Shown here piece by piece: positions 3,973 to 24,446 of a stretch of 43,493 nucleotides of DNA; position 1 is the first letter of the stretch; each line of letters starts with the position of its first letter. The stretch spans positions 1 to 43,493 of the forward strand of contig NZ_MSIE01000080.1 of assembly GCF_001921205.1 (NCBI RefSeq), written 5' to 3'. This stretch comes from Actinophytocola xanthii (lineage in GTDB: Bacteria > Actinomycetota > Actinomycetes > Mycobacteriales > Pseudonocardiaceae). The notes beneath the pieces were generated by a model. That model searched no databases. It was not told the DNA's origin and saw only the letters and a program-made list of their open reading frames with translations. The position numbers and the translations under genes were made by a program.

Positions 3973-4878
3973 ATGGCCGAGGAAAAAGCGATCTGGCTCG
4001 ACGGGGAGCTTGTTCCCTGGGCCGAGGCGAACATTCACGTCACCAGCTACGGCCTCTACTTCGGAATCGGCTTCTTCGAGGCCATCCGGACGTTCGACAC
4101 TCCGGACGGGCCCGCCTTCTTCCGGCTGGACGACCACCTCCGGCGGCTGGCCGACTCGGCGCACACCTACCTCGCGAAGCTCCCGTACTCCCGGAGCGAC
4201 ATCACCGCCGCGTGCAAGAAGACCGTCAAGGCCAACGGCCTCACCGAATGTCTGGTGCGTCCCATCGTCTTTCTCGGGGACGGCGACCACCCGCTCGCCG
4301 CGAAATGGCGGACGACGGTCATCGCGATGTCCCGGGGGCCGTATGTGTCGCTGCCGGACGAGGGCGGCGTGCACACCAAGATCAGCAGTTTCCACCGCAT
4401 GTCGGCCAACTCGTTCCCGCCGGCGGCCAAGGCGACCGGGCAGTACCTCAACGCCTACCTGGCCCAGTCCGACGCGCTCGGCTCCGGGTACGACGACGCC
4501 CTGCTGCTCAACGAGCACGGCCACGTCGTGGACGGCTGGGTGCACAACGTCTTCGTCGTCCGGGACGGGGTCGTGCGGACCCCACCGGTCAGCTCCGGAG
4601 CCCTGCCCGGGATCACCCGCGACACGGTTCTCACCCTCGCCCGCGAGCAGGGGCTCACCTGCGCCGAGGAGAACCTCGTGCGGACCGACCTCTACAACGC
4701 CGACGAGGTCTTCCTCACCGGCACCTCCGCCGGGCTGGTGCCGGTGATCTCCGTCGACCGCCGAACGATCGGCGACGGCAAGCCGGGCGAGGTCACCCGC
4801 ACGCTCGCGGACATGTTCGGCGACATCGTCCACGGTCGGGTCGACCTGCACCCCGAGTGGCGGGAGCCGGTCGGATGA
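3973..4878 (+). CDS. PLP-dependent class IV aminotransferase (branched-chain aminotransferase-like)
   Basis: First gene of the plus-strand operon, 301 residues. Class IV hallmarks are visible: GIGFFEAIRTF (31-41), the HLRRL phosphate-site region (56-60), and the PLP-binding Lys153 in AAKATGQYLN. The usual EGSGENIF segment of branched-chain enzymes reads VDGWVHNVF (186-194), which removes the canonical Glu and suggests a substrate other than leucine, isoleucine or valine. ATG 3973 is chosen over an upstream start because gaggggacggga precedes it. Its stop overlaps the next ATG (ATGA). In context it may move an amino group onto or off a pathway intermediate. 4-Amino-4-deoxychorismate lyase or D-amino-acid transaminase are alternatives in the same fold. 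Confidence 0.88.
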   Translation: MAEEKAIWLDGELVPWAEANIHVTSYGLYFGIGFFEAIRTFDTPDGPAFFRLDDHLRRLADSAHTYLAKLPYSRSDITAACKKTVKANGLTECLVRPIVFLGDGDHPLAAKWRTTVIAMSRGPYVSLPDEGGVHTKISSFHRMSANSFPPAAKATGQYLNAYLAQSDALGSGYDDALLLNEHGHVVDGWVHNVFVVRDGVVRTPPVSSGALPGITRDTVLTLAREQGLTCAEENLVRTDLYNADEVFLTGTSAGLVPVISVDRRTIGDGKPGEVTRTLADMFGDIVHGRVDLHPEWREPVG

Positions 4879-6476
4879 GACCCGAACCCGCCACCTCGGG
4901 GCAGGCCGCTCCCTGGTGGACGTTGACCGCGGTCTCGGCCGCGGTGTTCATGGTGATGCTCGACCTGACAGTGGTGAACGTCGCGCTCCCCGAGATCCGC
5001 AACTCGCTCGGCACCGACTTCTCCGCGATGCAGTGGGTGATCGACGCCTACGCGCTGACGCTGGCCGCGTTCCTCCTGACGGCCGGCTCACTCGCCGACA
5101 GCTGGGGTCGGCGTCGGGTGTTCGCCGCCGGCTTCGCCGTGTTCACGCTCGCGTCCTTGGCCTGCGGGATGGCCGACGACATCCTCACGCTCAACCTCGC
5201 CCGGGCCGCGCAGGGCGCCGGCGCCGCCGTGCTGTACGCGGTGGGTCCCGCGTTGATCGGCCACGAGTTCCGCGGCCGCGCCCGGGGCATGGCCTTCGGC
5301 GTCTTCGGCGGTGTGTCCGGGGTCGCGATCGCGCTCGGGCCGGTGATCGGCGGTGCGCTCACCTCCGGTCCCGGCTGGCGGTGGATCTTCCTGGTCAACA
5401 TCCCGGTCGGCCTCGCCGGGATCCTGGTGGCGGCGCTGCGGATGCGCGAGTCACGCGCCGTGCGGGCGCACGGCGCGGACTGGCCGGGCCTGGTCTCGTT
5501 CTCCGGCGCGCTGGGGCTGCTCGTGCTGGCGCTGCTGCGGGGCAACGAGGAGGGCTGGACCAGCGCCACGATCCTCCTCCTGCTCACCGCGTCGGTGGCG
5601 CTGCTCGCGGTGTTCGTGGCCGTGGAGCGGGCACGCGGGCCGCGGGCGATGCTCGACCTGCGCCTGTTCGCCAACCGGACCTTCCTCGGCATCGGCCTGG
5701 TCGCCCTGGTCGCCAACGTGGCGGCCATCCCGGCGGTGTTCTTCGAGATCTCGGCCGTGCAGAACCTGCTGCACTTCTCGCCGTGGGAGACCGGGGTCCG
5801 GTTCCTGCCGCTGACGCTCACCCTGTTCGTCTTCTCCGCCCTGGCCGGAGCACTCACCGGACGGCTCCCGATGCGGGTGCTGGTGTTCGTCGCGGCGGCG
5901 TTCATCAGCGGCGGCCTCGCCCTGGTCGTCCTGGCCGACGAGCACACGGCGTGGACGGTGCTCATCCCGAGCATGGTCGTCGGCGGTATCGGGCTGGGGA
6001 TGTTCCAGCCGCTGCGGGCCGCCACGTCGATCGGTGTGGTCGCCCCCGAGCGGTCCGGCATGGCCTCAGGGGTCAACGAGACCTTCCAGCAGGTCGGCGT
6101 CGTCATCGGGATCGCGGCTCTGGGCGCGCTCTTCGAGAGCCGGATCACCTCCGCGCTCGCCACCGACCCCCGTGCCGCCGGCCTGGACCCGGCGACGGGC
6201 GGCGACCTCGTGGCGGCCGGCCGGATCGACACGGTCGGCTCGGCCGGGCCGGAGGCTCTCGCCGCGGCGCGGGCGGCGTTCGTGTCCGGGTTCCACCAGA
6301 CGATGCTGGTGTGCGCGGCGCTCGCCGCGGTGGCCGCCGTGCTGGGGCTGCTGCTCATCCGGACCCGCGACTTCCACTCCAGCGCACTGTCGATGATCCC
6401 GCCCGAGGTCGGCACCGCGACCGACGAGGACCCGGCCGCGCGGCCGGGCGAGCTGGTGAGGAGGGGCTCCCGATGA
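4875..6476 (+). CDS. MFS drug/metabolite exporter, DHA2 (EmrB/QacA-like) family
   Basis: A 533-residue inner-membrane proton antiporter with about 14 hydrophobic spans, the length and count typical of the DHA2 family. MLDLTVVNVALPEI (residues about 25-38) is the family motif in TM1. GSLADSWGRRRVF is motif A in the loop between TM2 and TM3, and IALGPVIGGAL is the antiporter motif C region. It overlaps the aminotransferase stop and the next gene's start by four bases on each side, so it is translationally coupled inside the biosynthetic operon. The natural inference is export of, and self-resistance to, the operon's product. The short polar C-terminus (PPEVGTATDEDPAARPGE) is cytoplasmic tail. 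Confidence 0.93.
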   Translation: MRPEPATSGQAAPWWTLTAVSAAVFMVMLDLTVVNVALPEIRNSLGTDFSAMQWVIDAYALTLAAFLLTAGSLADSWGRRRVFAAGFAVFTLASLACGMADDILTLNLARAAQGAGAAVLYAVGPALIGHEFRGRARGMAFGVFGGVSGVAIALGPVIGGALTSGPGWRWIFLVNIPVGLAGILVAALRMRESRAVRAHGADWPGLVSFSGALGLLVLALLRGNEEGWTSATILLLLTASVALLAVFVAVERARGPRAMLDLRLFANRTFLGIGLVALVANVAAIPAVFFEISAVQNLLHFSPWETGVRFLPLTLTLFVFSALAGALTGRLPMRVLVFVAAAFISGGLALVVLADEHTAWTVLIPSMVVGGIGLGMFQPLRAATSIGVVAPERSGMASGVNETFQQVGVVIGIAALGALFESRITSALATDPRAAGLDPATGGDLVAAGRIDTVGSAGPEALAAARAAFVSGFHQTMLVCAALAAVAAVLGLLLIRTRDFHSSALSMIPPEVGTATDEDPAARPGELVRRGSR

Positions 6477-7390
6477 CCGTTCCGGTCGTGGTGGCGGCCG
6501 ACCTGTCCTTCGAGAGCACGGTGCCGCGGGCGATGGTGCACCGGCACGCGGTCAGCGAGGTGTTCCTGACCGACTCGGCGCGGCTGTCGGAGAGCGAGTA
6601 CCTGGTCGCCGCGCACCTGCCGACCACGCACGCCTTCTTCGGCGACCTCGTCCACAACGGACACGCCGACCCGCAGTTCTTCGTCGAGGTGTCCCGGCAG
6701 GCGTGCGTGCTGCTCGCCCACCGCTACTACGGGGTGCCGCGCGGGTACGGCTTTGTGTTCCGCCGGTCGACGACCGAGGTGGTCGACCGGGCGGCGCTGC
6801 GCCTGTCCCCGTCACCGGCCCGGGTCGTGCTGCGGGTCGAGGTGCGCGACGTCGAGTACCGGCAGGGCACCGCGCACCTGATGGACCTGGCGCTGGTGGC
6901 CGAGGTGGACGACCGCCCGGCCATCCGGTTCACCGGGACCCAGCTGATGCTGCCGCGGGAGACCTTCGCCGTCCTGCGCGCCGCCCACACCGCCCGGCTG
7001 GTCCCCGGCCGCCAGGACGGCCCGCCGCTGCACCCCGGGCGGGTGGGCCGGACCGACCCGCGCAACGTGGTGCTCTCCCCCGGTCCGGCCGAGGGCGTGT
7101 TCGAGCTGGTCGTGGACCAGACCCATCCGGTGTTCTTCGACCACCCCCAGGACCACGTGCCGGGGCTGCTGCTGGTCGAGGCGTTCCAGCAGGCGGCGTT
7201 CGCGGCCCTGGGACCGGAGCCCGCGCCCGAGCTGGTGTCGCTGGACCTGGCGTTCGACCGGTTCGTCGAGCTGGGCGTGACCGTGCGAGTCCATACCGAG
7301 GTCGCGCCGGGAGCAGGTCCACGGGCCGTCGCGGTCCGGCTGGTCCAGGCCGGCGACACCGCGGCCACGGCGACGGTGCGGGTCCGCTGA
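6473..7390 (+). CDS. AfsA-family gamma-butyrolactone/butenolide synthase (A-factor biosynthesis hotdog repeat)
   Basis: A 305-residue protein with two hotdog-fold repeats, as in AfsA, ScbA, BarX and MmfL. The first repeat (about 15-165) starts with VHRHAVSEVFLTD, and the second (about 185-300) contains FDHPQDHVPGLLLVEAFQQ (222-240), the most conserved family segment with Glu236. Known family chemistry condenses a beta-ketoacyl thioester with dihydroxyacetone phosphate, giving an ester that cyclises to a butenolide phosphate. Here the gene lies inside a metabolic operon directly before a HAD phosphatase, and no TetR-type butyrolactone receptor is in the window. A biosynthetic rather than purely signalling role is therefore likely. 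The beta-ketoacyl donor could be the one-module PKS on the opposite strand. Confidence 0.9.
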   Translation: MTVPVVVAADLSFESTVPRAMVHRHAVSEVFLTDSARLSESEYLVAAHLPTTHAFFGDLVHNGHADPQFFVEVSRQACVLLAHRYYGVPRGYGFVFRRSTTEVVDRAALRLSPSPARVVLRVEVRDVEYRQGTAHLMDLALVAEVDDRPAIRFTGTQLMLPRETFAVLRAAHTARLVPGRQDGPPLHPGRVGRTDPRNVVLSPGPAEGVFELVVDQTHPVFFDHPQDHVPGLLLVEAFQQAAFAALGPEPAPELVSLDLAFDRFVELGVTVRVHTEVAPGAGPRAVAVRLVQAGDTAATATVRVR

Positions 7391-8040
7391 TGCGCACCGC
7401 GACCCGGGTCGCCGCCGTGCTCGTCGACTACGGCGGCGTGCTCACCAACCCCATCGCGGAGTCGCTGGCGACCTTCGCCGCCCGCAACGGCCTGACCGCC
7501 CGGCAGATCACCCAGGCAGTCGCCGCGGTGTCGTGGCGGGAGGGCTACCCGCTGATGGGGGCGCTGGAGACCGGGCTGGTGACCGAGGTCGAGGTGGCCC
7601 GCAAGGTCAGTGTGGAGCTGACCAGGGCCACCGGCCGCCCGGTCGAGATCGTCGAGTACCGGGAGCAGTGGTTCGGCTGCCGGGTGCCCAACCGGGCCCT
7701 GCTCGACTACCTCCCGTCGCTGCGGGCGCGGGGCTACGTCCTGGGCCTGCTCACCAACAACGTGCGCGAGTGGCGCACCTCCTGGCGGGCCGGCGTGCCG
7801 GTGTCGCTGTTCGACTGCGTGGTCGACTCCTCGGCCGAGGGGACCCGCAAGCCCGACGCGGGGTTCTACCGCGTCGCGCTCGAGCGGCTGGCCGGGCTCG
7901 GCCTGCCCCCGCAGGCCTGCCTCATGGTCGACGACGTCGCCGACAACTGCGCCGCCGCGACCGAGGCGGGCATGCGGGCCGTCCGGTTCACCACCACCGA
8001 AGAAGCCATCACCGCCATCGAACGAGAGCTGCGCTCATGA
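7390..8040 (+). CDS. HAD-superfamily (subfamily IA) phosphatase
   Basis: A 216-residue hydrolase with all four HAD motifs: I, LVDYGGVLT with nucleophile Asp13; II, LLTNN with Thr122; III, RKPDAGFY with Lys154; IV, MVDDVADNC with Asp181/Asp182. The second acidic residue of the DxD motif is Gly15, as in the DxGGV branch that includes epoxide-hydrolase N-terminal phosphatases and YihX-like enzymes, so activity may be weak or selective. Its ATG shares one base with the AfsA-family stop (TGATG). Butenolide pathways started by AfsA or MmfL need a phosphatase to remove the phosphate derived from dihydroxyacetone phosphate. This gene is the obvious candidate, by position rather than by sequence specificity. 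Confidence 0.9.
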   Translation: MRTATRVAAVLVDYGGVLTNPIAESLATFAARNGLTARQITQAVAAVSWREGYPLMGALETGLVTEVEVARKVSVELTRATGRPVEIVEYREQWFGCRVPNRALLDYLPSLRARGYVLGLLTNNVREWRTSWRAGVPVSLFDCVVDSSAEGTRKPDAGFYRVALERLAGLGLPPQACLMVDDVADNCAAATEAGMRAVRFTTTEEAITAIERELRS

Positions 8041-9608
8041 CACACCAGATCACCCCCTTACCCGTGCTCGTGGTCGGCGCCGGACCGACCGGCCTGGCCA
8101 CCGCCGGCCTGCTGCGGCGCTTCGGTGTCGAGGTCCGGATCATCGACCGGGCGGCCGGCACCAGCGACCAGTCCAAGGCCAACCTGCTCTGGTGCCGGAC
8201 GTTGGAGGTCCTCGACGAGCTCGGGCTCGCCACGGCCGTCCAGGAGAAGGGCGACGCGCTGCGGGAGGGCCGGTACTCGGCCGGCGCGACCCGCCTGGCG
8301 ACGGTCACCACCAACGCGATCCCGGGGACCAGGTTCCAGCCGACGATCATCCAGCAGAACGTCACCGAGCGGATGCTGGCCGACGGGATCGACGTGCCGG
8401 TGGAGTGGCGGACCGAGGCGGTGGAGTACCACCTGGACGGTGACCGCCCGGAGGTCGTGCTGCGGCGCCCGGACGGCGAGCTCGAACGGGTGCGCGCGGA
8501 GTACCTGGTGGCCTGTGACGGCATGCGCAGCCCGCTGCGGGCCGCGGCCGGCGTCGAGTTCGAGGGCGAGGCGATCGACGAGGACTTCGTGCTCGGTGAC
8601 GCCGAGGTGACCACCTCGCTCGAGCGTGGGGTGGCCTACCAGTTCTTCGGCAGCGACGGGTTCCTCATCGCCGCGCAGCTGCCCGGCGGGCTCTGGCGGC
8701 TGGCCGGTCCGGTCGGCAAGCCGGTCGAGTCGCCCGGAGCGGCCGACCTGCAGGCGCTGGTCGACCGGTACGCCCCGTCGGGCACGATCAGGGTCACCGG
8801 CACCGACTGGGTGGACAGCTTCCGCATCTCCCAGCGGGTGACCCCGCGCTTCCGCGCCGGTCGCGTGCTGCTCGCCGGGGACGCCGCCCACGTGCACAGC
8901 CCGGCGGCGGGGCAGGGCCTGAACTCCAGCATCCAGGACGCGCACAACCTCGCCTGGAAGCTCGCCTACGTCGTGCGCGGCCTGAGCGGGGAGGACCTGC
9001 TCGACTCCTACGACCACGAGCGGCGCGAGGTCGCCGAGGCGATCCGTCGCGTCACCCGCATGCAGGCGCGGATGTGGTTCATGGCGCGCACACCGCTGGC
9101 GCGGCTGCGCCGCAGGCTGATGCTGCGGCTGCTGGACCGCACCGGCGCGTTCGAACGCAAGCTGCTGCCCCGCCTCGCCCAGCTGACCATCGACTACGCC
9201 AGCTCCCCGCTGACCGCCGCGGCCGGGGCGAAGAAGGGCGACCCGCTCCGGCCGGGGCTGCGCCTGCCGGACGTCCGGGTGCGGCCGGCCGGGGCCGGCG
9301 AGGACGCGTGGACGCTGCGCCTGTGCGCGGACACCCGGCTCACGGTGCTGACCGCGGCCCCGGCGGCGGTCGACGGGCTGGCCGCGCTCGCCGCCCGCCA
9401 CCCCGCCGCGCTCGCCGTGCACCAGCTCGAGGCGGCCGCCGGACCGCTCGAGGCGCTGACGACCGACCTGGTCGTGGTGCGTCCGGACGGGCACGTCGGC
9501 TACCGGGGCCCGGCCACCGACCTCGACGCGCTCGAGCGCTGGCTCGTCGGGCCGCTCGCCCTGACCACCACGACCCCGGTTGGAGCCCACGATGCGACTG
9601 CCCACTGA
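8037..9608 (+). CDS. FAD-binding aromatic/polyketide-type monooxygenase (group A flavoprotein hydroxylase)
   Basis: A 523-residue NAD(P)H-dependent monooxygenase of the PHBH/PheA/TfdB family. FAD motifs are in order: GAGPTG (14-19) in the N-terminal Rossmann fold, ACDGMRS (159-165), and GDAAHVHSPAAGQGLN (281-296). The C-terminal 130 residues fit the thioredoxin-like domain common in this family (DVRVRPAG, then RLTVLTAAP). Family members hydroxylate or epoxidise electron-rich rings or carry out Baeyer-Villiger-type insertions. A butenolide, furan or enol made upstream would be a reasonable substrate. The start overlaps the HAD stop (ATGA). Codon 8 is TTA (8058-8060), a rare codon in such DNA and a possible bldA control point. 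Confidence 0.9.
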   Translation: MTHQITPLPVLVVGAGPTGLATAGLLRRFGVEVRIIDRAAGTSDQSKANLLWCRTLEVLDELGLATAVQEKGDALREGRYSAGATRLATVTTNAIPGTRFQPTIIQQNVTERMLADGIDVPVEWRTEAVEYHLDGDRPEVVLRRPDGELERVRAEYLVACDGMRSPLRAAAGVEFEGEAIDEDFVLGDAEVTTSLERGVAYQFFGSDGFLIAAQLPGGLWRLAGPVGKPVESPGAADLQALVDRYAPSGTIRVTGTDWVDSFRISQRVTPRFRAGRVLLAGDAAHVHSPAAGQGLNSSIQDAHNLAWKLAYVVRGLSGEDLLDSYDHERREVAEAIRRVTRMQARMWFMARTPLARLRRRLMLRLLDRTGAFERKLLPRLAQLTIDYASSPLTAAAGAKKGDPLRPGLRLPDVRVRPAGAGEDAWTLRLCADTRLTVLTAAPAAVDGLAALAARHPAALAVHQLEAAAGPLEALTTDLVVVRPDGHVGYRGPATDLDALERWLVGPLALTTTTPVGAHDATAH

Positions 9609-10650
9609 CCTCTACCTCGCCGGTGCCGCGGCCTGGCTGCCGCCGGCGGTCTCGGCCAAGCAGGTCGCCGCGAACGGCGGCTACAGCGAGGAGGAGCTGA
9701 CCGCCAACGGGATCGTGTGCGCCCCCGAGGGCACCGACAGCCCGCCGGAGATGGCCGCCCGCGCCGCCGCGACCGCGCTGTCCCGCTCCCCCGGGGTGAC
9801 CAGTGAGGACATCGCGCTGGTGCTGCACGCCCACTCCCACCACCAGGGGCAGGCGTTCTGGTCCCCCGCGTCCTATGTGGCGCGTGAAATCGGGGTAACC
9901 GGCGCCGTCGCCGTCAACATCGGGCAGATGTCCAACAGCGGCATGGCCGCGCTGGAGCTGGCACTGCCCTACCTCGCCGCGCGGCCGGGGGCGGCGGCGC
10001 TGGTCACCGCCGCCGACCGGTTCCGCGCGCCGAGCTTCGACCGGTGGAGCGCGGACCTCGGAATCGTCTACGGCGACGGCGCGGCCGCGCTGGTGGTGTC
10101 GGGCGGCGGCGGTTTCGCGAAGGTGCTGTCGATGCGGACCCGGACCGACCCGTCGCTGGAGCGGCTGCACCGGGGGAACGTGCCGTTCACCGACCACGCG
10201 GGTGCCGAGCCGGTGAACGTGCGGCGCACCAAGGTGGAGTACGTGACCGAGGTCGGCCTGCCGTCGATCATCGAGCGGTCCACGGCCGGCGTCATGTCGG
10301 TGGTGTCCGGCGCGCTGGCCGACGCCGGGCTCGGGATGGACCAGATGGCCGTGGTCGTGCTGCCGAACCTCGGCCGGCACGTGCTCGCCGCGCAGTACCT
10401 GCAGCACCTCGAGCTCACCCCGGAGCGGACGCTGATGGACTGGACCGCCCACACCGGACACCTGGGCGGCGGGGACCAGCTGGCGGCGGTGGCGCGGCTG
10501 GTCGAGACGAAGCGGGTCTCGGCCGGGCAGCACGTGCTGCTGGTCGGCGCCGGCGGCGGGTTCTCCTGGTCCGCGGCCGTCGTCGAGGTGCTCGAGGTGC
10601 CGGACTGGCCGGAGCAGACCGCCATGCCCGAGCTGCCCGCGGACGTCTGA
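9592..10650 (+). CDS. KASIII-like acyltransferase without the catalytic cysteine
   Basis: A 352-residue thiolase-fold protein. GIVYGDGAAALVV (157-169) and LVGAGGGFSWSAAVVE (317-332) fix the family. At the active site, where FabH has a Cys followed by x-Gly, this protein has GQMSNSGMAALELA (111-124), which places Asn115 at the nucleophile. The HQAN-type histidine segment reads LPNLGR, and the later Asn-containing segment reads HTGHLGGGD (287-295). It is therefore not a standard ketoacyl-ACP synthase; acyl transfer or another thioester reaction is more likely, as in the CerJ/DpsC-like side branches. ATG 9592 is preferred over the upstream TTG (9580) because GGAG precedes it; it overlaps the previous gene by 17 bp. 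Confidence 0.85.
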   Translation: MRLPTDLYLAGAAAWLPPAVSAKQVAANGGYSEEELTANGIVCAPEGTDSPPEMAARAAATALSRSPGVTSEDIALVLHAHSHHQGQAFWSPASYVAREIGVTGAVAVNIGQMSNSGMAALELALPYLAARPGAAALVTAADRFRAPSFDRWSADLGIVYGDGAAALVVSGGGGFAKVLSMRTRTDPSLERLHRGNVPFTDHAGAEPVNVRRTKVEYVTEVGLPSIIERSTAGVMSVVSGALADAGLGMDQMAVVVLPNLGRHVLAAQYLQHLELTPERTLMDWTAHTGHLGGGDQLAAVARLVETKRVSAGQHVLLVGAGGGFSWSAAVVEVLEVPDWPEQTAMPELPADV

Positions 10651-10659
10651 GGAGCCGGC

Positions 10660-11670
10660 ATGAACCCCGTCAGCCTCGTCGGTCTCGGCTCGTACCTGCC
10701 CGCCGCCGAGATCGGCCTGGACTTCTTCTTCGGCGATGCCGTGCCCGACGACCCGATGTCGAACAGCCCGCTGTTCCGGCAGCCGACGACACGTCGACAC
10801 GTCGCGCCCGGGGAACGGGCCGCCGAGATGATCCGGGCGGCGGCGGCGCCGGTGTTCGAGCGCCGCGGCATCTCCCCGGCCGGGAACGTCGAGGTGTTGA
10901 TCACCAACGTGCTGCTGCCGGACGCGCTGTTCACCGGCTGCGGGGCGGAGGCGGCCGACCTGCTCGGCTGCACCCCGGAGTGGGTCATCGACCTGCACAA
11001 CGGCGGCTGCGCGTCGTTCCCGTACATGCTCAAGCTGGCCAGGACGCTGATCGGCTCGGGCGAGGCCCGCACGGCGCTGGTGTGCAACGTGCAGAACACC
11101 GCCGGGCAGGTGTTCGCCCAGCCGGGAGTGCGCCGGCAGCCGCACGCGGCGGTACCCGGCGACGGCTGCGGGGTGGCCTACCTGACCGCGGGTGGCCACT
11201 CCCCCGTGCTCGGCGTGGAGACCCGCAACCTTCCGGAGTTCGCGATGGACCTCGGCCCGGCGACGACCGACGGCCGCAGGTTCTGGGAGCCGGGCGCCGG
11301 CGAGCTCGACGTCCGGTTCGCCGAGGACCGGACGGCGGAGATCATCGCCCGGGGCAACGCGCTCGTGCCGGAGGTCGTCGGGGACCTGTGCAAGCGGATC
11401 AACGTGAGCCCTGCCGACATCGACGTGCTGATCACCAACCAGCCCAACCGGATCTTCCTGCGGACCTGGCGGGCGGCGCTGGGGCTCGAGCCCCACCGCC
11501 ACCTCGACACGTTCGACCGGTACGGCAACCTCTACGGCGCCGGAGCACCGGTGACGTTTGCCGACGCGGTGGAGACCGGGGCGGTCAAGGACGGGGACCT
11601 GGTCGTGCTGGCCGGCTTCGCCCACGCCGGGGACTTCGCGGCGGCCGCCGCGGTGCGGTGGCACTCCTGA
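10660..11670 (+). CDS. KASIII-like synthase/acyltransferase with catalytic Cys retained
   Basis: A 336-residue thiolase-fold protein and the last gene of the operon. Unlike its neighbour it keeps a nucleophile, Cys117 in HNGGCASFPYMLKLA (113-127). The His of the usual HQAN motif is replaced by Asn260 (ITNQPNRIF), while a downstream Asn (Asn290, DRYGNLYGAG) remains. A Cys-Asn-Asn site is unusual for FabH and may favour acyl transfer over decarboxylative condensation. A start at 10660 is supported by GAGGAG overlapping the preceding stop. The paired KASIII-like genes (one Cys-less) could act as a heterodimer, but this is inference. The gene ends only 10 bp from the convergent peptidase gene, with no visible terminator between. 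Confidence 0.88.
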   Translation: MNPVSLVGLGSYLPAAEIGLDFFFGDAVPDDPMSNSPLFRQPTTRRHVAPGERAAEMIRAAAAPVFERRGISPAGNVEVLITNVLLPDALFTGCGAEAADLLGCTPEWVIDLHNGGCASFPYMLKLARTLIGSGEARTALVCNVQNTAGQVFAQPGVRRQPHAAVPGDGCGVAYLTAGGHSPVLGVETRNLPEFAMDLGPATTDGRRFWEPGAGELDVRFAEDRTAEIIARGNALVPEVVGDLCKRINVSPADIDVLITNQPNRIFLRTWRAALGLEPHRHLDTFDRYGNLYGAGAPVTFADAVETGAVKDGDLVVLAGFAHAGDFAAAAAVRWHS

Positions 11671-17306: not shown

Positions 17307-18683
17307 TCAGACCAGCTGCCTCTTGATCAGGTTCGGGTGGCGGTCCTGGAAGGCCAGCAGTGCGGTCAGGCCCTTCGCGCCGACCCAGGACAGCGGCTCG
17401 ACCGGGAACCGGCGCTCCTTGCGGTTGACGAACAGCAGGTTGCTGTAGGTCGAGTCGCGCTCGAGGATCAGGTCGCGCAGGATCTTGCCGGCGGTGTGGG
17501 TGAGGGCGATGCCGTTGCCGCAGTAGCCGTAGGCGTAGTGCACACCGTCCTCGGTGGACCCCACGTGCGGGACGAAGTCCCGGGTCATGCCGACACAGCC
17601 GCCGTAGGAGTAGGCGATGCGCAGGTCGCGCCAGGCGGGGAAGTACCGGGCGAGCGCGCCGCGCAGGAACTCGGTCGCCTCGTCGCGGCGCATGTGCCGG
17701 CTCTCGGCCATGTCCCGGCCGTAGAAGTAGGGCGCCGGTCCGCCGCCGAACAGCAGCCGGTTGTCCGCCGTGAAGCGGCCGAAGATGATGAAGTTGCGGG
17801 CCTCGACGAAGCCCTCCCGGTCCGGCCAGTGCACCTGCGCGAGCTGCTCGTCGGTCAGCGGCTCGGTCACCACCGCGTAGCTCCACACCGGCTTCACCCG
17901 GTGCCGGAAGGGGCGGAAGCCGTGCTGGTAGGCATCGGTGCCCAGGACCAGCCGGTCGGCGACGACCCGCCCCCCGGACGTGGTGATCACGTGCTTGCCG
18001 TTCTCCTTGGTCACGCTCGTGGCCAGGGTCTGCTCGTGGAGGTGCACGCCCATCCCCCGCACCACCCTGGCCAGACCGCGGGCGAGCCGGTGCGGGTTGA
18101 GCAGCGCGCCGCCGACCTTGAACGCCCCGTGGATGGCCGGCGAGCCGATCCGCTCCCTGGCCTGCTCCCGGTCGAGCAGCTGTAGCGAGTTACGGGCGCC
18201 GATCCGCTCGGCGAGGTCCACGTCCCGGCGCAGCAACCGCAGCTGCGCCTCGCTGGTGGCGACGGAGAAGTAGCCGTTGGGCTCGAGCTCGGCGTCGACG
18301 TCGTGCTTGCGGCAGAACCGGTCCAGCTCCAGCATCGAGCGCCCGACCACCGCGTAGGCGGTCTTGGCGCGCTCGGTGCCGAACCCGTGCACCAGCCCGG
18401 CGAGGCTGTGCCCGATCGTCGGGGTGACGAACCCGTCCGCGTGGCCGGACGCGCCGGCGCCCGCGTAGTCCATCTCGACGATGTGGATCGACAGCGACGG
18501 GTCGGCCTGCTTGAGGAAGTACGCCGTCCACATGCCGGTGTACCCGCCGCCGACGATGCCGACGTCACAGTGGACGTCCTCGGACAGCGGCGGTCCGGGC
18601 TCGACGGCCTCGGTGTCCCGCCAGTAGATCGAGTGCTTGATCCCCGCCTGGACGCTCGGTCCGGTCTGGCTGAGGTTGGCCAT
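17307..18683 (-). CDS. DAO-superfamily FAD-dependent oxidoreductase
   Basis: A 458-residue flavoprotein with an N-terminal dinucleotide fold ([25 protein letters not shown] at 45-50), an [15 protein letters not shown] region and a C-terminal [18 protein letters not shown]-closing segment. This matches D-amino-acid/sarcosine/gamma-glutamylputrescine oxidase-like enzymes (DadA, PuuB type), which oxidise C-N bonds of amines or amino acids. Start ATG 18683 has AAAGGGA upstream. The previous gene ends 11 bp before it and the PKS begins one base after its stop, so it is embedded in the operon. An amine oxidase fits a pathway that also holds an aminotransferase, but no amine-containing intermediate can be proven from sequence. 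Carbon-carbon or C-O oxidation is an alternative. Confidence 0.87.
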
Positions 18684-18694
18684 GTCAGTCCCTT

Positions 18695-19582
18695 TCACAC
18701 ACGCTCGAAGACGATCCGGACCAGGCCGAGGTGGCGGTTGCGGAAACCGGCCACCGACGCCCGCAGGTAGCGCTCGTAGTCGGCGACCCGCTCCTCGCCG
18801 ACCATCTCCACGGCCGCCGCCCGGTTGGCGACGAGCCGGTCGAGCCACTCCTGGCAGGTGCGCGCGTAGTGGTCGGCGTCGTTGCGCGCGGAGACCAGGT
18901 CGAACCGCCGCTCGCTCGCCTCGAGGATCTCCGAGGTCCACGGCAGCTCCGACTCGGGGAAGATGTGGTCCACGATGAACAGCAGGTCCTTGACCGTCGT
19001 GCGGTCGAGCCGGGTGTTGTTGCCCTTGACGTTGGTCTGCAGCGCGAGCCGCCCGCCCGGCGGCAGCCACTCGTGGCAGCTGTCGAAGAACCGCCGGTAC
19101 GCGGCGATCCGCGCCGCCCTGGTCATGCCGAAGTCGGCGAAGTGCTCGAACGCGCCGATCGACACGATCGCGTCGTAGGGCGCCGCGCCGGGACGGGGAG
19201 TGGGTACGTGGTCGACCCAGTTCTGCACCCGGACGTCGTAGCGGTCGTCGGCGAACGTCTCCACGTGGGCGGCCTGCTCGGTGGCCAGCGTCAGCCCCAC
19301 GACCTCGGTCACCCGGTGGTGGTCGACCAGCCGGCGCAGCATGCCGCCCCAGCCGCAGCCGACGTCGAGGACCCGTTCGGCACCGCCGGCCCTGGCCCCC
19401 TCGGCCAGGTAGTCGAGCTTGCGCTCCTGGGCGGCGCGCAGCGTGTCGTCCGGCCCCGCCCACATCGCGCAGGAGTAGCTGCGGGTCTCGTCGAGCCACA
19501 GCGCGTAGAAGTCGTTGCCGCGGTCGTAGTGGCTCCGGATCGCCTCCGCCGAGGCACCCTGGTACTCCAGCTGGCCCGTCAT
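18695..19582 (-). CDS. Cyclopropane-fatty-acid-synthase-like SAM methyltransferase
   Basis: A 295-residue methyltransferase of the CFA/mycolic-acid-cyclopropanase family. HYDRGNDFYALWLD (18-31) and SYSCAMW with Cys38 match the family's substrate-side signature. VLDVGCGWGG (71-80) binds SAM and SIGAFEHFADFG carries the Glu near the bicarbonate site. At 295 residues it matches the compact CmaA/PcaA group rather than the longer E. coli Cfa. Family members add methylene or methyl across a cis double bond of a lipid chain. The same operon encodes a desaturase that could make that double bond, so methylation or cyclopropanation of the acyl intermediate is a reasonable inference. N- or C-methylation of another substrate is possible. 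It overlaps the upstream SDR stop (ATGA). Confidence 0.88.
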   Translation of the reverse strand: MTGQLEYQGASAEAIRSHYDRGNDFYALWLDETRSYSCAMWAGPDDTLRAAQERKLDYLAEGARAGGAERVLDVGCGWGGMLRRLVDHHRVTEVVGLTLATEQAAHVETFADDRYDVRVQNWVDHVPTPRPGAAPYDAIVSIGAFEHFADFGMTRAARIAAYRRFFDSCHEWLPPGGRLALQTNVKGNNTRLDRTTVKDLLFIVDHIFPESELPWTSEILEASERRFDLVSARNDADHYARTCQEWLDRLVANRAAAVEMVGEERVADYERYLRASVAGFRNRHLGLVRIVFERV

Positions 19583-20502
19583 CGCCCTGCCTCCGCCTTC
19601 GCCACGACTCGGTTGAGCCGTTCCATCCGGCTGGCCAGCGTGATCCGGCCCTCGAGCCGGAACGCGGGTGGCTGCCGACCGTCCACATCGGTGAAGCCGT
19701 ACCTGGCGGCGAGGTCGCCCACCGCCAGCCGCTGCCCGGACACCGCCATCACCTCGGGGTCCGCCGCCAGCGACGTGATCGCCCGGCCGACGTACTCCGG
19801 GGAGTGCACGACCTGCGCCGGGCCGGCCCCGAGCAGGTCCCACGCGGCCTCGACCCGCTCGGTGCGGACGAAACCCGGATGCAGCGCGACCGCGGCCACG
19901 CCGTGCTTGCGCAGCTCGTGGCCCATGCCGAGGGCCAGCCGGTCCGAGGCGGTCTTGCACATGTCGTAGGCGGCCTGGCCGAGGTAGACCTCGCCGTCGG
20001 TGAACGAGATGTTGACGATCAGCCCGGCGGAGCGCGGCAGCATCAGCGGCACGGCGAGCCGGCTGGCCACGAACTGGCCGCGCAGCGAGGCGGCGAACAG
20101 GTCGTAGCGCCACTGCGGCTGCTGCCAGAACGGCGCGTCGAACCGGTGCTCGTCGCTGCGCTCGTAACCCGCCCAGGCGTTGTTCACCAGCAGGTCGAGC
20201 CGTCCGCTCTCGGCAGCGATGCGGTCGAACACCGCCTCGACGTCCCCGTCGACCGTGTGGTCGCACCGCACCGCGACCCCGGTCCCGCCCCGCGCGGTGA
20301 CCTCCTCGGCGGTGTCCTGGACGGTGCCCGGCAGGTCCTCGGTGGTGGCCCCGCCCCGGACGCTGCGGCCGGTCACGTACACCGTCGCGCCCGCCTCGCC
20401 CAGCGCCAGGGCGATGCCCTTGCCCACCCCCCGGCTCGCGCCGGTGACCAGGGCGACCGCACCCGACAGGTCGGGCGTCGTCCACTCCAGGTTGTGAGTC
20501 AT
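19579..20502 (-). CDS. SDR-family NAD(P)-dependent oxidoreductase
   Basis: A 307-residue classical-type short-chain dehydrogenase. The cofactor motif is TGASRGVGKG (20-29), the structural motif NNAWAG (107-112, Trp variant of NNAG), and the catalytic set Ser166 (NISF), Tyr179 and Lys183 (YDMCK). A C-terminal extension of about 50 residues beyond the core (TDVDGRQPPAFRLEG) resembles DHRS1-like members. It probably reduces a ketone or oxidises an alcohol in the pathway; a butenolide or beta-keto reduction step would suit it. It overlaps both neighbours by four bases, indicating coupled translation. Direction and substrate cannot be read from sequence. Confidence 0.9.
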   Translation of the reverse strand: MTHNLEWTTPDLSGAVALVTGASRGVGKGIALALGEAGATVYVTGRSVRGGATTEDLPGTVQDTAEEVTARGGTGVAVRCDHTVDGDVEAVFDRIAAESGRLDLLVNNAWAGYERSDEHRFDAPFWQQPQWRYDLFAASLRGQFVASRLAVPLMLPRSAGLIVNISFTDGEVYLGQAAYDMCKTASDRLALGMGHELRKHGVAAVALHPGFVRTERVEAAWDLLGAGPAQVVHSPEYVGRAITSLAADPEVMAVSGQRLAVGDLAARYGFTDVDGRQPPAFRLEGRITLASRMERLNRVVAKAEAGR

Positions 20503-21536
20503 GCGATCTCCTTCACCGCGCGCGCGGTCTCCCGCACGGACGTCCAGTAGTTGAGGCTGTGCCGGTAGGCGTCCCGGTCGCAGGGCATCGGCACGCCGAA
20601 CCGCTCGCCGAGGTCGCGCAGGGAGCTGGGCAGTACACCGCCGGAGGCGTGGGTCACCTCGCTGACGTCGATCAGCACCTTCAGGAAGGTGCGCGAGGTG
20701 GCCGGGACCCGGTCGAGCGGCACCGGCAGCGGCAGCCGGGGGTCCACGACCCGGACCTCGGGGATCTCCCGTCCGGTCCGGGCCGCGTGCTCGCGCAGGA
20801 TCGTCTGCGCCTCGGCGACGCTCATCGCGTCAGCCCCGTAGGTGAGCCAGTGGGTGTGGCCGAGGTCGTCGGCCAGCACCCCACGCGCGATCGCGACGGC
20901 GGTGACGTCCAGGGGTATGACGTCGACCAGGTTTCCTTCGTGTGCGGGGAAGAACGGTGCCTTCCCCCGGCAGAACCAGTCCGACATGGCCTGCACGATC
21001 TGGGGCTGGCTGCTCGCGCCCGTGAGCGAGTCGCCGACCAGGTTGGTCGGCCGGTAGACGGTGTGCGGAACGTCGCTGGCGCCAAGCAGGTGCTCGGCGG
21101 CCAGCTTCGACCTGATGTAGGGGCGGACCACGTTGTCCCGTCCCAGCTCGTCGAGCCGACCGAGCTCGATGGCCCGCACGAAGCACGTGCTCACCAGGTG
21201 CACCGGGGCACCCGACCGGGTGGCCAGCTCGATGACGTGGCGCGTCCCGTCGATGTTGACCGACTCGTAGCGCGGCCACGGCTGGCCCCAGGTAGTGAGC
21301 GCTCCGGAGTGGACGATCACGTCCACCTCACCGGACAGCCGGTCCCACGTGGACCGGTCCAGGCCGAACCGCGGCAGGGCCAGGTCACCGCGGAGCACCT
21401 CGTCCACATCGGGCAGGTCGGAGTCGCTGTGCACCAGACCGATGACCCGGTGTCCCGGCAGGTACCGGGGCAGCGCCCGGCCGATCACCCCGGACGCCCC
21501 GGTGAGCAGGATCGTGCGTGCTGTCGTGCTGGCCAT
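20499..21536 (-). CDS. Extended SDR, thioester-reductase/epimerase-like
   Basis: A 345-residue extended short-chain dehydrogenase. The nucleotide motif is LLTGASGVIGR (10-20), and PYIRSK gives the YxxxK catalytic pair. STCFVRA and VYRPTNLVGDSLTGA match the substrate-domain segments of NAD-dependent epimerases and stand-alone thioester reductases (carboxylic acid reductase R-domain type). Thioester reductases release ACP-bound acyl chains as aldehydes or alcohols with NADPH. In this operon, directly after the acyl-AMP ligase and near the free ACP, that role is attractive but not proven, since sugar epimerases and sterol dehydrogenases share the fold. ATG 21536 has GGGAG upstream; longer readings into the ligase frame have no basis. 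Confidence 0.82.
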   Translation of the reverse strand: MASTTARTILLTGASGVIGRALPRYLPGHRVIGLVHSDSDLPDVDEVLRGDLALPRFGLDRSTWDRLSGEVDVIVHSGALTTWGQPWPRYESVNIDGTRHVIELATRSGAPVHLVSTCFVRAIELGRLDELGRDNVVRPYIRSKLAAEHLLGASDVPHTVYRPTNLVGDSLTGASSQPQIVQAMSDWFCRGKAPFFPAHEGNLVDVIPLDVTAVAIARGVLADDLGHTHWLTYGADAMSVAEAQTILREHAARTGREIPEVRVVDPRLPLPVPLDRVPATSRTFLKVLIDVSEVTHASGGVLPSSLRDLGERFGVPMPCDRDAYRHSLNYWTSVRETARAVKEIA

Positions 21537-21547
21537 CTCGTGTCTCC

Positions 21548-23188
21548 CTAGCCGAGCCGTACCGTGGCCAGCGGCTCGAACCTGCCGGCGTCGAGCATCT
21601 GCCGGCAGCGGTGCCGCTGGATCTTGCCGCTGGGCGTCTTGGGCAGGCTGTTGCGCGTGAGGAACACGCACTCGGACAGCGCCACCGCCGCCTTGGCCAT
21701 GGCGACCGAGGCCACCGCCTCGGCGAGCGGCCGGTAGTCCTCGAGCCGCCGTCTCACCTCGACGAACAGGGTCAGCTCGCGACCGGAGCCGTCGGTCGCG
21801 ATCAGCGTTGTGCACCCGCGCCGGACCCCGGCCAACGCGTCGACCGCCTGCTCGACCTCCCGGGCGTAGACCTTGCGCCCGGCCACCGAGATCACGTCGT
21901 CGACCCGGCCGACCGGGTACAGGTAGCCGTCCCGGACGAACCCGAGGTCGGACGTGCGCACGGTGTCGCCGACGAACCGATCCGCCGTGCGGGCCGGGTC
22001 GCCGAAGTACCCGGAGGCCAGCGCCGGCGACCGGACGCTGATCTCGCCGAGCCGGTCACCCGGAGCACCGAGCACCTCGACCCCCGCACACGGCACGCCT
22101 GCCGCCACGACCGCCGTCGCCGACTCCGCGCCCGCGTCCACCTCGACGAGCTCGCCGTCGGCCAGCGCTATCGAGTCGACCACCAGGTGGCGCGGCGCCT
22201 CGTCGACCGGTGTCGCGGTCACCGCGAGCGTCGCCTCGGCCAGGCCGTAGGCCGGCATCAGCGACTCCGGCCGGAACCCGTACGGGCCGAGCGACTCCAC
22301 GACCTGGGCGAGCGTGCGGGCCTCGGTCCGCTCGGCGCCCACGATGCACGCCCGCACGTCCAGCCCGCCGGCCAGCCGCGTGGAGCGGCCGATCCGCGAA
22401 CCGAGGTGCAGCGCGGTGTTCGTGCCGGCCGTCATCGTCGCGCCGAACTCGGCCATGTCGCCGAACCAGGTCCGCGGGGCGAAGGTGAACCGCTCCGGTG
22501 TGGACAGGTGCAGCGTCCAGTCGTTCACCCAGGGGGTGAGCAGCGTGCCGAAGATGCCCATGTCGTGCGAGAGCGGGAGCCAGGACACGGTGGTCTCCGC
22601 GCCGGGCCGCCCGTCGAGCATCGCGGTCACCATGCCCAGCTGGGCCTGGATGGCCGCCGTGGTGAGCACGCATCCCTTGGGGGCGCTGGTGGAGCCCGAC
22701 GAGTACTGGATGAACGCCGGCTCGTCAGGACCGGGCGGGGTGGCGTCGACCACCCCGGTGCCGGCCATCGACTCCCAGGTGCGGACCCGCAGCGCGCTGC
22801 GCAGGTCCTCGTCGAGCAACCCGGCCATGCGTTCCTCGAGCAGGAACAGCTCCGGCTGGAGCTGGGCGCAGATCGAGCTCAGCTGCCGGGTGTACTCCGC
22901 GCCGTCCATCCCGCGGGCGGGGACCGGGAGGGAGGCGACGGTGCCACCGGCGAGCCACACCCCGAGCAGCCCGCGCACGGTGTGCGGGCCGTTGGTGAGC
23001 ACCGTCGCGACCCGGGTGCCGGGTCGCACCCCGCACCGCCGCAGCCCCGCCGTCATGCGCTCGGCGTCGGCGACCACGTCGGTCCACGTGGTCCCCTCCC
23101 ACCGGTCGCCGACCCAGCAGTGCAGCGAGGAGCGGAACGGGGTGCGACCGGCGCCGGTCAACGCATCCCAGAGGGTGTCACTCGACAT
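21548..23188 (-). CDS. Fatty-acyl-AMP ligase-like (FAAL) acyl-ACP synthetase
   Basis: A 546-residue ANL-superfamily adenylating enzyme. The phosphate-binding motif is YSSGSTSAPKGCV (162-174). SWLPLSHDMG (202-211) is characteristic of FAAL proteins, YGLAEATL and SDLGFVRDGYLYPVGR follow in order, and the C-terminal lysine motif is KTPSGKIQR. FAALs form acyl-adenylates and pass the acyl group to an ACP instead of CoA. The partner here is most likely the free ACP two genes upstream. The ATG at 23188 overlaps the desaturase end by 11 bp and has GGGA upstream. ACP, desaturase and ligase together match the three-gene logic of JamABC-type terminal alkene/alkyne cassettes. Chain length and saturation of the substrate are unknown. 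Confidence 0.9.
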   Translation of the reverse strand: MSSDTLWDALTGAGRTPFRSSLHCWVGDRWEGTTWTDVVADAERMTAGLRRCGVRPGTRVATVLTNGPHTVRGLLGVWLAGGTVASLPVPARGMDGAEYTRQLSSICAQLQPELFLLEERMAGLLDEDLRSALRVRTWESMAGTGVVDATPPGPDEPAFIQYSSGSTSAPKGCVLTTAAIQAQLGMVTAMLDGRPGAETTVSWLPLSHDMGIFGTLLTPWVNDWTLHLSTPERFTFAPRTWFGDMAEFGATMTAGTNTALHLGSRIGRSTRLAGGLDVRACIVGAERTEARTLAQVVESLGPYGFRPESLMPAYGLAEATLAVTATPVDEAPRHLVVDSIALADGELVEVDAGAESATAVVAAGVPCAGVEVLGAPGDRLGEISVRSPALASGYFGDPARTADRFVGDTVRTSDLGFVRDGYLYPVGRVDDVISVAGRKVYAREVEQAVDALAGVRRGCTTLIATDGSGRELTLFVEVRRRLEDYRPLAEAVASVAMAKAAVALSECVFLTRNSLPKTPSGKIQRHRCRQMLDAGRFEPLATVRLG

Positions 23189-24164
23189 CGACGATCCCGA
23201 CCGCGGCGGCGCGGGGACGGTGGGCGAGCGGCTTGTCCGGGGTGGCCCGTGCGTGCCGGCCACCGCCGAGCTTCTCCCACGCCACGGCCTTCTGCTCCTG
23301 GCGCTCCCGGTCGATGCGGATCACGTTGGTCGCCAGGCCCAGCTTCTCCAACCCACCGATGACCATCGCGCTGATGTCGATCTCGTACCAGCGCATGCCG
23401 TGGCTGGCCGACCGGGGGAAGGCGTGGTGGTTGTTGTGCCACGCCTCCCCGAAGGAGAACAGCGCGAGCCACCCCACGTTGCGGGACTCGTCCGGGGTGG
23501 CGAACCGCCGCCGGCCGAAGTAGTGGCCGATGGAGTTCACCGCGTAGGTGATGTGGTTGGCGAAGAAGAACCGCACCAGCCCACCCCAGAGCGCTCCGGT
23601 GAACGCGCCGAACAGAGTTCCGGTGAACGCGAACCCGAGCACTCCCGGCAGCACGACACCGGCGGTCACGAACCAGACGAAGTGCTTCGAGATGAAGCGC
23701 ATGTCTTTGTCCCGCAGGATGTCCGGGCAGTACCGCATCGGGTCCGAGGACAGTCCGCGGTCGAACAGCCAACCCATGTGGGCGTGCCAGAGGCCTTTCA
23801 GCGCACCCTTCAGGCCCGGCTCCTCGTCGTGGTACGGGCTGTGCGGGTCGCCCGGCTTGTCCGCCACCCGGTGGTGGCGGCGGTGGTGGGCGACCCAGAT
23901 CACCGGGGGACCCTGACCGGCCATCGCGCCCGCGGCGGTGAAGAAGATCCGCAGCGGACGGGTCGTCCGGAACGAACGGTGCGCCAGCAGCCGGTGGTAA
24001 CCGGTGGACACCCCGAGGCCCGCGATGACGTACATGATCGCGAAAATGACCAGGTCCGCCGGTCCGACAAGCTGGTTCCACAACAGAACGACGGCGGCGG
24101 CCACACCGAACAGCGGCAGCAGCGCCGAGAGAAGGATGAAGGTGTAGTGCTCGCGCCCATCCAT
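23178..24164 (-). CDS. Membrane-bound acyl desaturase (three-histidine-box, di-iron)
   Basis: A 328-residue integral membrane enzyme. Histidine boxes are HRLLAH (57-62), HHRRHH (93-98) and HNNHH (243-247), with hydrophobic spans at about 8-28, 36-56, 160-182 and 188-208. This is the Delta-9 acyl-CoA desaturase family, to which the JamB/TtuB-type desaturase-acetylenases also belong. The enzyme should introduce a double bond (or triple bond) into an acyl chain held on CoA or ACP. The neighbouring free ACP and FAAL favour an ACP-bound substrate. AAGGAG lies just before the ATG at 24164. The polar C-terminal tail of about 35 residues is longer than the catalytic core requires. Regioselectivity cannot be predicted. 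Confidence 0.93.
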   Translation of the reverse strand: MDGREHYTFILLSALLPLFGVAAAVVLLWNQLVGPADLVIFAIMYVIAGLGVSTGYHRLLAHRSFRTTRPLRIFFTAAGAMAGQGPPVIWVAHHRRHHRVADKPGDPHSPYHDEEPGLKGALKGLWHAHMGWLFDRGLSSDPMRYCPDILRDKDMRFISKHFVWFVTAGVVLPGVLGFAFTGTLFGAFTGALWGGLVRFFFANHITYAVNSIGHYFGRRRFATPDESRNVGWLALFSFGEAWHNNHHAFPRSASHGMRWYEIDISAMVIGGLEKLGLATNVIRIDRERQEQKAVAWEKLGGGRHARATPDKPLAHRPRAAAVGIVDVE

Positions 24165-24200
24165 GGCTGACTCCTTGCTCTGTCTGATCGACCGACCGGG

Positions 24201-24446
24201 TCAGCCGACTTCCAGGACCTCGTTGGTCAGCGCCAACAGGTCCCCCAGGGTCTGCGCGTCGGCCGCCTTCGCCGGGTCGAACTCGACGCCGTGCTCGTCC
24301 TCGAGGGTGAACACGATCTCGGACACCTGGAGGCTCGACAGGCCCAGCTCGTCCAGGCGGGTGGTCTCGTCGATCTGAACGTCGGCGGGCAGCTTGCCCC
24401 GCATCTCGCGCCGGATCAGGTCGGACAGCGTCTCAATAGTGATCAT
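24201..24446 (-). CDS. Stand-alone acyl carrier protein
   Basis: An 81-residue ACP and first gene of the minus-strand operon. The phosphopantetheine attachment site is LDELGLSSLQVSEI (31-44) with Ser38; the usual Asp before the serine is Ser37. Helix-rich acidic sequence (FTLEDEHGVEFD) matches the family. The ATG at 24446 is chosen because the ACP fold begins there; the longer reading adds an unrelated 27-residue N-terminus. Its position in front of a desaturase and an acyl-AMP ligase implies that it carries the fatty acyl group while it is modified and delivers it to the one-module PKS. The 36-bp gap to the desaturase contains that gene's AAGGAG. Confidence 0.92.
   Translation of the reverse strand: MITIETLSDLIRREMRGKLPADVQIDETTRLDELGLSSLQVSEIVFTLEDEHGVEFDPAKAADAQTLGDLLALTNEVLEVG

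Follow-up and report, generated by a model that had tools for sequence, protein, structure and literature searches.

A conserved fatty acyl-AMP ligase cassette, a nonreducing polyketide synthase and an AfsA-family enzyme in convergent operons of Actinophytocola xanthii: a possible butenolide pathway

We analyzed a 43,493-nucleotide stretch of Actinophytocola xanthii, referred to here as the window, which is one whole contig (NZ_MSIE01000080.1; G000:C184) of an 8.34 Mb genome in 204 contigs; the flanks beyond the contig are unread. Two convergent operons within positions 3973–24446, which meet at 11670/11681, encode a fatty acyl-AMP ligase (FAAL) with its partner enzymes, a one-module polyketide synthase (PKS) and an AfsA-family enzyme. 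Sequence comparison established the identities of these genes, a conserved cassette around the FAAL, a loading acyl carrier protein (ACP) at every readable PKS start, a nonreducing last module at four loci, and AfsA on the PKS contig in three genomes. Tentatively, and at slightly less than an even chance, we propose a FAAL-primed one-step nonreducing extension, followed by butenolide formation from dihydroxyacetone phosphate (DHAP) by AfsA and by dephosphorylation.

In the proposed pathway, the FAAL would activate a fatty acid and load it onto the free ACP or directly onto the loading ACP of the PKS, and a desaturase and a methyltransferase of the cyclopropane fatty acid (CFA) type would modify the acyl chain. 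The loading ACP would pass the chain to the single ketosynthase–acyltransferase–ACP (KS-AT-ACP) module, where one malonyl unit would be added without reduction to give a β-ketoacyl thioester. The discrete AfsA would condense this thioester with DHAP to a phosphorylated acyl butenolide, a HAD phosphatase would strip the phosphate, a flavin monooxygenase (FMO) would modify the product, and an MFS pump would export it. Every reaction, the order of the steps, and the choice of AfsA rather than the thioesterase (TE) to take the chain are what we infer.

The putative starter-unit cassette and its distribution

Genes were called by coding-frame analysis and a small gene caller, and families were assigned by Pfam and NCBIfam scans. 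The minus-strand operon starts with the free ACP (24201–24446) and continues with a membrane fatty-acid desaturase (23178–24164), the FAAL (21548–23188), a stand-alone thioester-reductase-like protein of the NAD_binding_4 family (TR; 20499–21536), a short-chain dehydrogenase/reductase-type oxidoreductase (SDR; 19579–20502), a CFA/mycolic-acid-type SAM methyltransferase (CMT; 18695–19582), a DAO-family FAD oxidase resembling glycine/pipecolate oxidases (17307–18683) and, ending at 13169, the PKS. The original prediction for this DNA had named the FAAL, ACP, desaturase, CFA-like methyltransferase, PKS, AfsA, HAD phosphatase, monooxygenase and exporter, all of which are present where it placed them; its gene list was incomplete, as it left out TR, SDR and DAO together with an aminotransferase and two ketosynthase III (KSIII)-like proteins, KS3a and KS3b.

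A cassette of the form ACP-desaturase-FAAL-TR-SDR-CMT-(DAO) was found at seven loci, namely in four genomes of the Actinophytocola group (the window, a metagenome-assembled genome [MAG], A. xinjiangensis and G031), Nocardia tenerifensis, Saccharothrix sp. NRRL B-16314 and the more distant G832; from coinciding match coordinates, G132 was taken as the MAG and G066 as A. xinjiangensis. The full order including DAO recurred in the MAG (L034), Saccharothrix (L036) and N. tenerifensis (L035). It was kept in A. xinjiangensis (L033), where a contig end truncates the desaturase at the start of the locus, and in G031 (L078/L079), which has no adjacent DAO; G832 (L121, contig C19) has all seven genes in a rearranged order. 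TR, SDR, CMT and FAAL each occurred at 7/7 loci, as did the desaturase (one copy partial), and DAO and ACP at 6/7 (one ACP being cut off); contig ends conceal parts of several loci. The window TR is 80% identical to that of A. xinjiangensis, 73% to that of the MAG, 59% to that of Saccharothrix and 58% to that of N. tenerifensis.

The cassette is rare. Among 397 genomes of the order, 24 had a TR match at E ≤ 1e-30, of which only two exceeded 600 bits and the next scored 207, and a genus search found the cassette in four of six genomes; these and the other genome samples were draws from each group, not all of its genomes. Distant TR relatives (about 32%–36% identity; L080–L088) lie near class-III-aminotransferase-like, SRPBCC-like and often acyl-CoA-dehydrogenase-like genes, named by appearance, and these neighborhoods are possible fatty-amine pathways. 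The G031 cassette region also carries another FAD_binding_3 flavoprotein (L079:5239–6483), with a polyketide-cyclase-like protein and an MFS pump; AfsA was not found there.

The CMT scored 164.6 bits against the curated cyclopropane/mycolic methyltransferase model, below the cut-off of 390, and its best match in the PDB was CmaA2. In all seven cassette copies, Gln replaces a His of CmaA2, the aligned cyclopropane synthase.

KS3b, the last gene of the plus-strand operon (10660–11670), is a further partner of the cassette. This KSIII-like protein has Cys-Asn-Asn in place of Cys-His-Asn: in 14/14 sequences checked, the Cys was kept and the motif TNQPNR stands where FabH has HQAN, with Asn for the catalytic His. 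Its orthologue shares the cassette contig at five of the seven loci, which are the window, A. xinjiangensis (85% identity), G031 (62%), N. tenerifensis (62%) and G832 (54%), and the MAG has one (87%) on a contig other than that of the cassette. KS3b is thus present in six of the seven cassette genomes, the Saccharothrix contig being too short to judge. KS3a (9592–10650, plus strand) has Ser for the nucleophilic Cys, as do its MAG copy and its best PDB match, DpsC (4xs7; phmmer, 264.6 bits). We rejected it as a marker of the cassette: it had matches in 175 of 297 family genomes and none at E ≤ 1e-30 in G031, G832 or Saccharothrix.

Relatives of KS3b at E ≤ 1e-70 were found in 27 of 394 genomes drawn from the class, 23 of them in one family, which the gene neighbors lead us to take for Mycobacteriaceae. 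At the six annotated loci of this family (L124, L125 and L127–L130, out of eight fetched; L126 and L131 were left out), KS3b lies between a thiamine diphosphate (ThDP)-type enzyme, a small SRPBCC-like protein and an aminotransferase or aminotransferase-like gene; some of these loci adjoin secY/adk/map-like genes. The G832 cassette genes are arranged around KS3b, a ThDP enzyme and a small protein, and genes resembling those for PPTase, FabH and acyl-CoA dehydrogenase lie nearby. Pfam confirmed the ThDP enzyme and the aminotransferase there and gave the small protein no family, so that "SRPBCC-like" describes its appearance only. Neither PKS nor AfsA was found in 60 kb around the G832 cassette, and this locus is an unexplained fatty-acid pathway. 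The ThDP enzyme was rejected as a universal partner of KS3b, since the A. xanthii, MAG, A. xinjiangensis and Saccharothrix genomes had no match at E ≤ 1e-30, and in G031 and N. tenerifensis it lies away from the cassette.

The polyketide synthase and AfsA

The PKS (13169–17305, minus strand) has the architecture loading ACP-KS-AT-ACP-TE and contains no ketoreductase (KR), dehydratase (DH) or enoylreductase domain. By domain content, its terminal module is thus fit to yield an unreduced β-keto thioester, which bears out the earlier claim that the module is of the kind that AfsA needs. The AT motif is VSHAFH, which we take to be of the malonyl type. The MAG encodes an orthologue of the same architecture with 67% identity. 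The A. xinjiangensis line consists of two proteins encoded on one strand behind a second desaturase copy, a PKS of 1796 aa (loading ACP-KS-AT-DH-KR-ACP) and one of 1299 aa (docking-like start-KS-AT-ACP-ACP-TE); N. tenerifensis has a 1938-aa PKS (loading ACP-KS-AT-DH-KR-ACP) followed by one of 1332 aa (docking-KS-AT-ACP-TE). The first modules of both lines carry the AT motif VDYASH. In Saccharothrix, the PKS behind DAO opens with the same loading ACP.

The loading ACP shares the motif GY[NT]S[ML]AAV in all five readable PKS starts (window, MAG, A. xinjiangensis, N. tenerifensis and Saccharothrix); it was identified by the Pfam PP-binding family in the first three and by alignment only in the last two. 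FAAL, ACP and the loading ACP of the PKS are encoded together and conserved together at 5/5 loci with a readable PKS N-terminus, with the FAAL and the PKS on two contigs in A. xinjiangensis, and the predicted FAAL-primed starter cassette is supported by comparison of the genes. Of the five PKS ends seen, four (window, MAG, A. xinjiangensis and N. tenerifensis) had a nonreducing last module with VSHAFH. The fifth, in G031, shows a KR-ACP piece, with a 264-aa TE encoded separately behind it, and the PKS start lies beyond the contig end. These are small numbers, four loci with a readable nonreducing end against one visible KR-ACP end. A TE is present in all four readable nonreducing terminal modules.

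The plus-strand operon runs from 3973 to 11670 in the order aminotransferase, MFS exporter, AfsA, HAD, FMO, KS3a, KS3b. The AfsA/ScbA-family hotdog protein (6473–7390) is a putative phosphorylated-butenolide synthase: its Pfam AfsA match (123 bits) covers two hotdog-repeat stretches, and it scored 237.7 bits against NF041195 (ScbA_BarX; cut-off 200). A PDB search with it returned nothing at E ≤ 0.1. In an alignment of 19 AfsA sequences, E72, R75 and E236 were kept in all; the near-invariant Glu and Arg of the repeats are presumably important for catalysis. The MAG AfsA (L038:3316–4410) contains an insertion of about 50 residues between the two repeats. Next to AfsA lie the HAD-IA phosphatase (7390–8040), a candidate for dephosphorylating the AfsA product, and the FAD_binding_3 FMO (8037–9608). 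Upstream are an IlvE-type branched-chain aminotransferase of the Aminotran_4 family (3973–4878), with an 88% identical copy in the MAG operon, and a DHA2/EmrB-type MFS exporter (about 4944–6476, with a start perhaps near 4875; 79% identity in the MAG), whose family call comes from NCBIfam only (EmrB, 230.3 bits; cut-off 230.2).

AfsA lies on the PKS contig in the window, in A. xinjiangensis (C26) and in N. tenerifensis (C7). The order in C26 is desaturase fragment-PKS-PKS-FMO-P450-like-...-abH-AfsA, on one strand save for one opposite gene, and that in C7, all on one strand, is cassette-abH-AfsA-FMO-luciferase-like-HAD-MMPL-like-PKS-PKS-KS3b (P450, abH and MMPL were named by sequence appearance). 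Between these two species, abH is 56%, FMO 44% and AfsA 37% identical. In A. xinjiangensis, AfsA stands with the PKS and the second desaturase copy, and the full cassette is on a different contig; both contigs break inside desaturase copies, so that their adjacency is putative. The contigs C26 (end of L167) and C56 (start of L168) end in two near-identical yet distinct desaturase 3' ends, which suggests that a duplicated desaturase broke the assembly.

Genes next to the two operons were considered as further parts. A second PKS (26169–43493, minus strand), cut by the contig end, comprises three full KS-AT-DH-KR-ACP modules, the last domains (DH-KR-ACP) of a fourth and a docking-like tail, for which the window encodes no partner. 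It lies 1.7 kb from the ACP gene, and the one-module PKS opens with an ACP, not a docking helix. As it was absent from all four readable flanks before the ACP gene (MAG, 7 kb; G031, 16 kb; N. tenerifensis, 5 kb; Saccharothrix, 6 kb), we rejected it as a conserved part; it probably belongs to a neighboring polyene-type cluster. A short M1-peptidase-like gene (11681–13120, minus strand) and an O-methyltransferase gene (3240–3842) were also rejected, neither occurring in the MAG loci; the sole O-methyltransferase-like match among the loci, at 35% in Saccharothrix L036, was assigned to another gene set by its neighbors. The products of the M1-like gene and of a trypsin-like gene (25353–26114, plus strand), which adjoin the operons, are probably secreted, and the trypsin-like gene was likewise missing from the MAG loci read. 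At the left end of the contig are a DDE-type transposase gene (52–1554, minus strand) and then a GH43 gene.

Weighing the proposed butenolide pathway against its alternatives

The joint pathway of the original prediction is plausible, though not proven. For it speak the position of the cassette ahead of a PKS whose loading ACP is conserved, the nonreducing end with a malonyl-type motif at four of five PKS ends, and AfsA on the PKS contig in three of four cases. We also counted in its favor that AfsA was absent from the 29.7 kb read in G031, where the PKS end is KR-ACP with the TE on a gene of its own, and that the window has no ScbR-type receptor gene to accompany its AfsA, while a second AfsA elsewhere in the genome has two nearby.

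Several observations weigh on the other side. Some cassette enzymes have no part in the scheme, and the PKS module retains its TE, in contrast to published lines released by AfsA, where AfsA replaces the TE. Residue 239 of AfsA, the Arg position of the second repeat, is Gln in the window and the MAG and Arg in the other 17 of the 19 sequences. Only in the window and N. tenerifensis does one contig carry both the complete cassette and AfsA. The MAG has its AfsA operon (aminotransferase-MFS-AfsA-HAD-FMO-KS3a-...-KS3b) on contig C261, apart from the cassette contig; its genes are 78%–88% identical to those of the window, except AfsA, whose matching pieces are 72%–73% identical. No HAD was found in the A. 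xinjiangensis stretch read. At three of the seven cassette loci, AfsA was absent from the stretch read: in G031 and G832, whose genomes have AfsA relatives of only 31% and of 37% on other contigs, and in Saccharothrix, whose genome has no AfsA match at E ≤ 0.001. The window AfsA is just 38% identical to that of A. xinjiangensis and 29% to that of N. tenerifensis, and two other AfsA copies of N. tenerifensis score higher against it than the cassette-linked one. In a tree of the 19 sequences, the four cassette-linked copies required two changes, a value as low in 9 of 500 shuffles, and 8% of the bootstrap trees had one change; the tree thus neither shows nor excludes a single origin. HAD relatives at E ≤ 1e-25 occurred in 11 of the 397 order genomes, and at ten non-self HAD loci (19–20 kb read at each) AfsA was beside HAD in seven and the cassette in none.

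The original prediction had treated the two operons as one unit, and as an inherited unit this fails: the operons lie on separate contigs in the MAG, AfsA and the full cassette do so in A. xinjiangensis, and among the six genus genomes an orthologous AfsA is present in two and the cassette in four. It had also named the plus-strand operon without the minus-strand operon in most genomes as evidence against itself. For the general AfsA-HAD module this is the case, the cassette being absent from the stretches read at the ten HAD loci (seven with AfsA); for close orthologues the reverse was found, both genomes with an orthologous AfsA having the cassette. The recurrence of the same kinds of enzyme with the cassette, despite strong divergence or separate recruitment, in our reading favors a functional link over simple inheritance.

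In the leading alternative, which we consider less likely, chain release would fall to the TE, giving an acid, an ester or a pyrone, and the cassette together with KS3b would make the main product, a fatty and probably nitrogen-containing compound. TR would then form an aldehyde, the oxidase would act on an amine and KS3b would serve as an acyltransferase, with AfsA, HAD, FMO and the MFS pump making another compound. Its strongest argument is constancy: TR, SDR and CMT at 7/7 cassette loci and KS3b in six of seven genomes are steadier partners than the patchy AfsA. It would also fit the G832 locus described above, the TE at all four readable nonreducing ends and as a separate gene in G031, and the class-III-aminotransferase-like genes beside distant TR relatives at 9/9 loci. 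AfsA on the PKS contig in three genomes, on the same strand in two of them, argues for the butenolide pathway instead.

Considerably less probable is that the plus-strand operon is an autoregulator system, for a butyrolactone or butenolide signal, that merely adjoins a PKS cluster, as AfsA genes often do. The NF041195 match above its cut-off agrees with this, and AfsA-HAD(-FMO-MFS) sets do occur alone, as in N. tenerifensis C426 (L150), where a stand-alone AfsA (34% identity), HAD (44%), MFS (45%) and FMO (38%) have neither PKS nor cassette within 19 kb. However, the 22 genes called in the window (one, of 126 aa, without a family) include no receptor of the ScbR/ArpA type, and contig C46 (L152) of the A. 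xanthii genome carries a second AfsA (271 bits), within 5 kb of which lie two receptors of the ScbR family (166.7 and 169.4 bits; cut-off 150). The gene order and the protein starts suggest that this C46 neighborhood recurs in three congeners (G031, G066 and G132), and it is likely to be the true butyrolactone signal locus of the genome. To our knowledge, an FMO, a KSIII pair and an exporter in one operon would also be unusual for such systems.

A mycolate-like lipid pathway, in which FAAL, PKS, desaturase, CMT and SDR would mirror the FadD32-Pks13-CmaA-CmrA pairing and the TE would transfer the β-ketoacyl chain to sugar or glycerol, is very improbable: the PKS has the domain order of Pks13, its second-best NCBIfam model is mycolic_Pks13 (680 bits) and the best PDB match of CMT is CmaA2, but the cut-off of that model is 2100 bits, a general PKS model scores higher (1446, itself below its cut-off of 1740), the AT motif is of the malonyl type, two relatives have two-module lines with docking ends, and CMT has Gln at the His of the aligned cyclopropane synthase.

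If the butenolide pathway holds, TR, SDR, DAO, KS3a, KS3b and the aminotransferase remain outside its scheme, so the product is probably more elaborate than a plain butenolide and perhaps contains nitrogen. A wider proposal, which we regard as rather doubtful, is that these loci form an undescribed family of FAAL-primed cis-AT PKS lines in rare actinomycetes, in which a seven- to eight-gene cassette including the His-less KSIII makes a new fatty starter and, in the nonreducing branch, a trans-acting AfsA with DHAP takes the chain despite the TE.

Relation to known systems and significance

PKS chain release by AfsA is itself already published, for gladiofungin and gladiostatin of Burkholderia gladioli. 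According to the two reports (PMC7756420, PMC7756379), the AfsA-like domain of gladiostatin condenses 3-keto thioesters with DHAP in vitro and so releases the PKS chain, and deletion of the AfsA domain abolishes gladiofungin production. The likeness to the window lies in an AfsA-family enzyme with a modular PKS, in the pairing of a 3-keto thioester with DHAP, and in a phosphatase gene to which dephosphorylation is ascribed as a proposal. The Burkholderia PKS is of the trans-AT type, and its last module carries the AfsA domain as a fusion where a TE would stand; in contrast, the window has a cis-AT, FAAL-primed PKS, a separate AfsA and a retained TE. The PKS of the mycolic condensation system, Pks13 (PMC5944431), also has the order ACP-KS-AT-ACP-TE. 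Its FAAL partner is FadD32, and a CFA-type methyltransferase and a desaturase near the FAAL and PKS add to the likeness. The window differs from Pks13 in an AT of the malonyl type by motif, in a score far below the model cut-off and in two relatives with two modules, and its AfsA module has no counterpart there.

KS3a resembles the KSIII acyltransferases DpsC and CerJ in having Ser for Cys; the daunorubicin-type chain-building partners are absent from the window. Trios of FAAL, desaturase and ACP of the JamABC type supply alkyne starters. Like them, the window has a FAAL, a membrane desaturase and a free ACP together beside a PKS, and the cassette adds TR, SDR, a CFA-type methyltransferase and DAO. 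The A-factor and methylenomycin furan systems (AfsA, MmfL; MmfH-P) share with the window an AfsA-family enzyme and a HAD phosphatase. In those systems, the substrates are β-keto compounds of the fatty-acid type and receptor genes are adjacent; the window, in contrast, has no receptor and has a nonreducing PKS module next door. Our literature searches found no described cluster of this composition, and the word "undescribed" rests on them alone; a term search of a FAAL review found neither AfsA nor butenolide. The relatives share a core with differing additions, and the product is likely to be new; its ring, probably that of a small lactone, would be closed by AfsA.

The one-module version in the window is small enough to be rebuilt in vitro. 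If the proposed pathway is correct, dedicated cis-AT polyketide lines of actinomycetes would be served by AfsA enzymes acting in trans, and butenolide chemistry of the signal type would be linked to assembly-line products. The cassette, two of whose enzyme types are missing a usual catalytic or ligand residue, would then point to starter-unit chemistry not yet described.

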